A stretch of 64,000 nucleotides of DNA from a virus, in IMG/VR virus record IMGVR_UViG_3300047359_000671, positions 27,310 through 91,309 of that record. One strand, given 5' to 3'. Both the position numbers and the translations under genes were made by a program. Below, piece by piece: positions 28,505 through 28,744 of the stretch; within the stretch, counting starts at the first letter, position 1; every line of letters begins with the position of its first letter. The notes beneath the pieces were generated by a model, which was not told the DNA's origin, made no database searches, and saw nothing but the letters and a program-made list of their open reading frames with translations.

Positions 28505-28726
28505 TTAGATTATAGGCGTCCCAGCCTGTTTGCTCATTTCGAAATTCTCATTGACAATTTCGTTTAGATAGTCTATGTGACCTGCGGGCATTTCGTGTAT
28601 TTCACTAATGCTAACCCCACCTCTCATATACCAACTTAACTTTAACATATTCTTATGTAGTTTGTCAAGTCTTTTTTGATATTTTTCTTGTTTTTCTGCA
28701 ATTTCTTCTGGGCTGGCGTTAACCAA
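28505..28726 (-). CDS. C-terminal extension of gp26 made by -1 frameshift (GT-like)
   Basis: The frame encodes 73 residues (EKQEKYQKRLDKLHKNMLKL, SWYMRGGVSISEI). Small proteins of this type follow gp26 in other T4-like phages as I remember them. The only available initiator is TTG 28726, which has no ribosome site and lies in the loop of a hairpin. In this frame a TAA stop lies six codons upstream of the slippery site, so access from gp26 must occur within a window of about 20 bases, which contains A AAT TTT. I therefore annotate it as a frameshift extension: 77 codons after the slip, giving a fusion of about 352 residues. Independent translation by re-initiation is the alternative. Confidence 0.7.
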   Translation of the reverse strand: MVNASPEEIAEKQEKYQKRLDKLHKNMLKLSWYMRGGVSISEIHEMPAGHIDYLNEIVNENFEMSKQAGTPII

Positions 28727-28744
28727 CCAGCCTAAGAAAAATTT
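28711..28744 (-). promoter_or_regulatory. Programmed -1 ribosomal frameshift signal
   Basis: On the minus strand the zero-frame codons GTA AAT TTT TCT TAG contain A AAT TTT (28744-28738), a correct X XXY YYZ heptamer. Five bases later a 6-bp stem GGCTGG/CCAGCC (28732-28727 with 28716-28711) closes a 10-nt loop. This is the standard layout of heptamer, spacer and stimulatory hairpin. Confidence 0.75.

Follow-up and report, generated by a model that had tools for sequence, protein, structure and literature searches.

The window analyzed here is a stretch of 64,000 nucleotides from a 91-kb virus record (IMGVR_UViG_3300047359_000671), whose gp20 portal, tail sheath, and gp26 led us to class it as a T4-like jumbo phage. 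The gp26 gene, our candidate for the short tail-assembly chaperone TAC-N, occupies positions 28732 to 29562 on the minus strand as a zero-frame open reading frame (ORF) of 276 aa that ends in TCT TAG, and a base-by-base check placed its TAG stop codon at 28732 to 28734. The protein matched the Pfam family PF12322 (T4_baseplate) above the Pfam cut-off (E=2.5e-18) and the PHROG family phrog_150 (baseplate hub; E=3e-22). Its AlphaFold model (pLDDT 90) resembles structures predicted for baseplate hub proteins of T4-like phages. A fold search of the PDB with this model gave 0 matches at E<=0.001, and gp26 was therefore classed as a protein that works like lambda G, not as its homologue. Using tblastn, we found 89 homologues of gp26 with a query coverage of 80% or more; most are in jumbo phages, at about 30% identity. 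A DNA-level search of a phage collection with the locus gave no match because protein identity to the named relatives is only about 30%.

Divergent from gp26, on the plus strand at 29691 to 31748, lies a gene that is a candidate for encoding the tape measure or another virion protein. Its product matched a structural protein of PA5oct that was detected by mass spectrometry (24% identity over 337 aa, E=3e-11), and the RaK2 gene at the same position is annotated as similar to tape measure. A BLASTP comparison of the window's product with this RaK2 gene showed no connection. It is plausible that the divergent gene is the tape measure.

At the end of gp26, we confirmed base by base the in-frame slippery heptamer that had been claimed in the initial annotation: A AAT TTT (AAATTTT; 28738 to 28744, minus strand) lies within the codons GTA AAT TTT TCT TAG. 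A 5-nt spacer, TCTTA, separates it from a putative stimulatory hairpin of 6 to 7 bp (28711 to 28732, minus strand), and the 6-bp stem and 10-nt loop described there also proved correct at every base. The 5' arm GGCTGG (28732-28727) and the 3' arm CCAGCC (28716-28711), both on the minus strand, enclose the loop TTGGTTAACG. Folding showed that a U-G pair lengthens the stem to 7 bp (-11.3 kcal/mol), and the base of the stem is extended by a further 4 bp, TCTT/AAGA. The hairpin is in the lowest 0.2% of 24-nt segments of the locus, and its stem is within the top 3% when ranked against positions of the same gene (rank 0.03). One detail had to be corrected: the TAA in the -1 frame had been placed six codons before the slip, whereas it lies 3 codons before the slip's AAA codon.

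Past gp26, a frame of 73 codons is open in the -1 phase relative to gp26. Read from the slip, the candidate TAC-C extension covers 28505 to 28738 on the minus strand, with 77 codons after the slip and a TAA at 28505-28507. The fusion is 352 aa long and contains ...NPVNFFLGWLVNASPEE..., in agreement with the fusion of about 352 residues that had been proposed. The downstream frame had also been described as lacking a start. This holds near the junction, where the only start is the TTG in the hairpin loop and there is no Shine-Dalgarno (SD) sequence, but not for the frame as a whole, which has internal ATGs (none in the first 25 codons). The extension frame is under protein-level selection: among 13 window-like loci, substitutions in the -1 frame numbered 2590 at the third codon position versus 1512 and 859 at the others, and over the 51 of 78 pairs for which dS was computable, the mean dN was 0.21 and the mean dS was 1.31. 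In relatives, the extension is a conserved protein with a WYMRGG...ER pattern. Its model is all-helical (pLDDT 86). Pfam and PHROG scans gave no convincing family for the extension, and a fold search of its model against viral models gave no match; among single members of the extension family, one matched phrog_634 at 0.0097 and one matched Gp41_Mu at 0.015. The similarity to the cyanophage and T4 extension was weak (hhalign probability, 10 to 13%), at the same position and with an alignable ER motif.

Taken alone, the heptamer in the window would not be remarkable. Its chance is about 0.08 given V-N-F and local codon use, and gp26 has 2 in-frame heptamers of this kind in 275 codons. We examined 80 IMG/VR loci that came from a profile search and were fetched by gp26 similarity only. 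At the same spot, 80 of 80 have A AAT TTT and/or T TTT TTY with an open -1 frame, and the fusion junction FF[R/L/H] is retained almost everywhere among them. An in-frame T TTT TTY is also found at the end of gp26 in the jumbo phages CBB, Phosso, PBECO4, PA5oct, CM1, RaK2, Atu_ph07, and XaC1, and in these eight a -1 frame of 70 to 85 codons opens at or shortly before it. Cyanophage-type loci, which were fetched separately, have T TTT TTY in 80 of 80 cases; in S-PM2, MED4-213, and S-CAM3, T TTT TTC lies 10 nt before the gp26 stop and "gp51" is in the -1 frame. At the 61 T-run loci, synonymous codon use predicts T_TTT in about 23. The probability of about 8% for the window's heptamer, given the amino acids, would by itself suit a chance heptamer beside a decaying or unrelated ORF. 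However, the 80/80 conservation, the -1 frame dN well below dS, and the cyanophages with the same arrangement already refute that reading, and we give it next to no weight.

The -1 rule does not hold throughout the family, because Bacillus phage SP-15 and the uncultured phage LR756508 have no -1 heptamer and carry the extension in another frame. In these two loci (SP-15, L010, about 3540 to 3820; LR756508, L014, about 3700 to 4000), the open frame past the gp26 homologue is in the +1 phase; the shift there may be +1 or -2. The public records treat the extension in several ways. In the records of RaK2 (L013, 3747-3941) and PA5oct (L011, 3849-4058), the conserved extension frame is not covered by a CDS, and those of other jumbo phages give it as a separate small hypothetical protein. 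Across jumbo phage and cyanophage records, the extension stands as a separate "hypothetical" or "gp51" ORF or is omitted, and therefore the annotations should be joined.

Only 3 of the 75 non-redundant loci have any extension start with an SD-like motif, and in 51 of the 75, no ATG occurs within the first 25 extension codons. These counts argue against stop-start re-initiation, in which ribosomes finishing gp26 would restart nearby and the extension would be a separate small protein. Public annotations of several relatives do show a separate protein, and an ATG lies near the junction in Phosso (as an ATGA overlap), PBECO4, Atu_ph07, and S-PM2, where small ORFs are annotated; in the window, there is the TTG within the hairpin loop. 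However, the residues just past the slip (FFR, LL) are conserved ahead of any ATG, and the heptamer and its spacing are kept even where gp26 continues 16 to 43 nt beyond the slip. The initial annotation had named as contrary evidence relatives in which the downstream ORF has its own start and the slippery site is missing; this pattern was not borne out, as Phosso, PBECO4, and Atu_ph07 have the near-junction ATG and keep the slippery site. We consider it improbable that re-initiation accounts for the extension. Since an ATG overlaps the gp26 stop in a few relatives, re-initiation could add free TAC-C there.

The initial annotation had also proposed aligning gp26 and downstream pairs in related phages; in these relatives, the heptamer is conserved and the stem is enriched. 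We searched for stems starting 3 to 9 nt past the heptamer. A stem of at least 6 bp was present at 66 of 75 loci (control, 46%), and one of at least 8 bp was present at 51% of loci (control, 11%). At 51 of 75 loci, the stem was in the top 5% of same-gene positions. Compared with synonymous recodings, the stem region was more stable (mean z, -2.3), with 41 of 75 loci below -2. The window's own hairpin reached only z=-1.1 in this comparison (p=0.14), and because that test is weak, the claim of a conserved stem rests on the group. Within the window group, 87% of stem pairs are kept, versus at most 59% when the stem is slid, and compensatory changes occur at two pairs; covariation is modest. A second group, comprising 15 loci that were chosen for having the stem (Phosso, Atu_ph07, and IMG/VR loci), has a long-range 10-bp stem with pairing in 93% of cells and compensatory change in 16, versus 6 in shuffles (0/500 shuffles). 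Thus, a stem 3 to 9 nt past the heptamer is enriched in relatives, while stimulation itself is predicted. The conserved stem is a concrete, testable candidate stimulator.

The conserved stem also bears on whether the slip would be made by ribosomes or by RNA polymerase. The slip sites are runs of 5 to 7 T, at which polymerase could add or skip a U, so that the fusion would be translated from edited mRNA. Transcriptional slippage usually needs a run of 8 to 9, and the run in the window is only 5 T. What the A AAT TTT form keeps is two codon-anticodon re-pairings, not run length, and the conserved stem at a fixed spacing points to ribosomes. We regard transcriptional slippage as very improbable.

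Immediately beyond the extension, and on its strand, we observed a conserved structured non-coding RNA of about 390 nt (28021-28410, minus strand). It has 77 pairs, with 97% of cells paired versus at most 42% when slid, and compensatory change occurs at 34 pairs (0/500 shuffles). A search of Rfam with it gave no match, and it is possibly a new RNA family. Its core motif was present in 57 IMG/VR contigs. In 53 of these, the extension lies 313 to 425 nt upstream on the same strand; the remaining 4 core-motif loci gave no extension match. At three more distant loci, the covariance model had weak matches of 20 to 21 bits: L069:3712-3819 (+), L081:3320-3426 (-), and L074:3265-3369 (-). All three have the CCGUUG and GGUAxCGGxCAACCGCCUC core and, to judge by this likeness, are perhaps distant copies of the structured RNA; those in L081 and L074 are on the strand opposite to gp26. 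Among the named jumbo phages, the model found no convincing match. In three named jumbo relatives, a gap of about 0.8 kb without annotation separates the chaperone region from endonuclease VII (L004, 6044-6829; L006, 6047-6882; L016, 4969-5760), and the window RNA model gave no match in these gaps. Just beyond the structured RNA, at 27411-27848 on the minus strand, is a gene for a SegE-like GIY-YIG homing endonuclease (PF19835, E=1.8e-34).

We conclude that the gp26 locus very probably encodes a programmed -1 ribosomal frameshift yielding TAC-N (276 aa) and TAC-NC (352 aa). The programmed shift and the analogy to lambda G/GT made in the initial annotation are strongly supported, with the site, the frame, the downstream protein, and the stem conserved in many relatives. 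On this reading, gp26 would be the short tail-assembly chaperone, TAC-N. Ribosomes at A AAT TTT would be paused by the hairpin 5 nt downstream, and a fraction of them would slip back one base and continue in the -1 frame. The slip would add a 77-residue, predicted helical domain to give the long form, TAC-NC, of 352 aa. As for lambda gpG/gpGT, both forms would coat the tape measure protein with the N-terminal part that they share, and the long form, in the minority, would use its extra domain to recruit tube subunits. We infer that slippage occurs, that it involves a certain fraction of ribosomes, and that the products function as chaperones. The chaperone role of the gp26 pair is suggested by the lambda G/GT arrangement and by an assignment of such genes made in 2022. 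A point against a chaperone pair is the gp26 homologue of CBB, which carries the annotation "structural protein"; TACs are not expected in virions. For the uncultivated jumbo-phage lineage of the window, we see about even chances of a recoding-plus-RNA cassette, in which the conserved 3' stem would drive the chaperone shift and the undescribed RNA of about 390 nt would be linked to the gene. The stem in this equally balanced reading would be the short hairpin or, in relatives, a long-range stem closing about 70 nt.

The N-terminal part of the fusion is homologous to T4 gp26 and T4 gp51, both of which match PF12322. In T4 gp51, residues 1-201 match PF12322, residues 147-246 match phrog_634 (the family of small cyanophage gp51 proteins), and the C-terminus can be aligned with the -1 frame of cyanophages. 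T4 gp26 ends in EFFELL, with no heptamer there. Because T4 gp51 spans both families and T4 gp26 is short, T4 apparently has a separate gene for each form: gene 26 for the short one and gene 51 for the fused one. The loci agree with the view of frameshifting as widespread among T4-like phages, with T4 instead using separate genes 26 and 51. The abstract of the 2022 study by Vladimirov and colleagues is said to describe frameshifting as retained in several T4-like groups.

As cited in passages of the PRFect paper (PMC10885494), TAC genes of T4-like phages were identified by Vladimirov, Gautam & Davidson 2022 (Virology 566:9, pmid 34826709), and these passages state, citing that work, that in some T4-like phages one TAC gene is short and another is fused. 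A passage of a 2025 paper (PMC12846349) credits the same study with poly-T slippery signals in T4-like TAC-N genes. To go by that passage, the initial annotation, which knew of no such shift described in T4-like phages, was wrong on novelty. A 2016 review (PMC5009743) names T4 as the exception among long-tailed phages with respect to the G-T frameshift. Our literature search for a TAC frameshift in jumbo phages found none. The chaperone frameshift is very probably real but not new in principle; the conserved stem and the adjacent structured RNA of about 390 nt are possibly newer, and these are the parts most worth following.

The heptamer of lambda G/GT is G GGA AAG, and that of P2 E/E+E' is T TTT TTG. 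Between lambda gpG/gpGT and gp26 of the window we found no sequence similarity, and the heptamers differ; the window gene also differs in its length of 276 aa, in being divergent from the neighboring candidate tape measure, and in having a conserved 3' stem. P2 E/E+E' and the Vandenendeviridae TAC (PMC12846349) are alike in that these TAC genes, from phages with contractile tails, also have -1 slip sites in T runs, but their protein families are unrelated to gp26. The dnaX-type bacterial -1 frameshift shares a heptamer, a short spacer, and a stem-loop with the window, in a different gene. The T4-like TACs (Vladimirov et al. 2022) resemble the window locus in the PF12322 family, in having short and long forms, and, as credited to that study, in poly-T slippery signals in TAC-N genes. 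T4 differs in its two separate genes (26, short; 51, apparently fused), whereas the window lineage has A AAT TTT and a hairpin.
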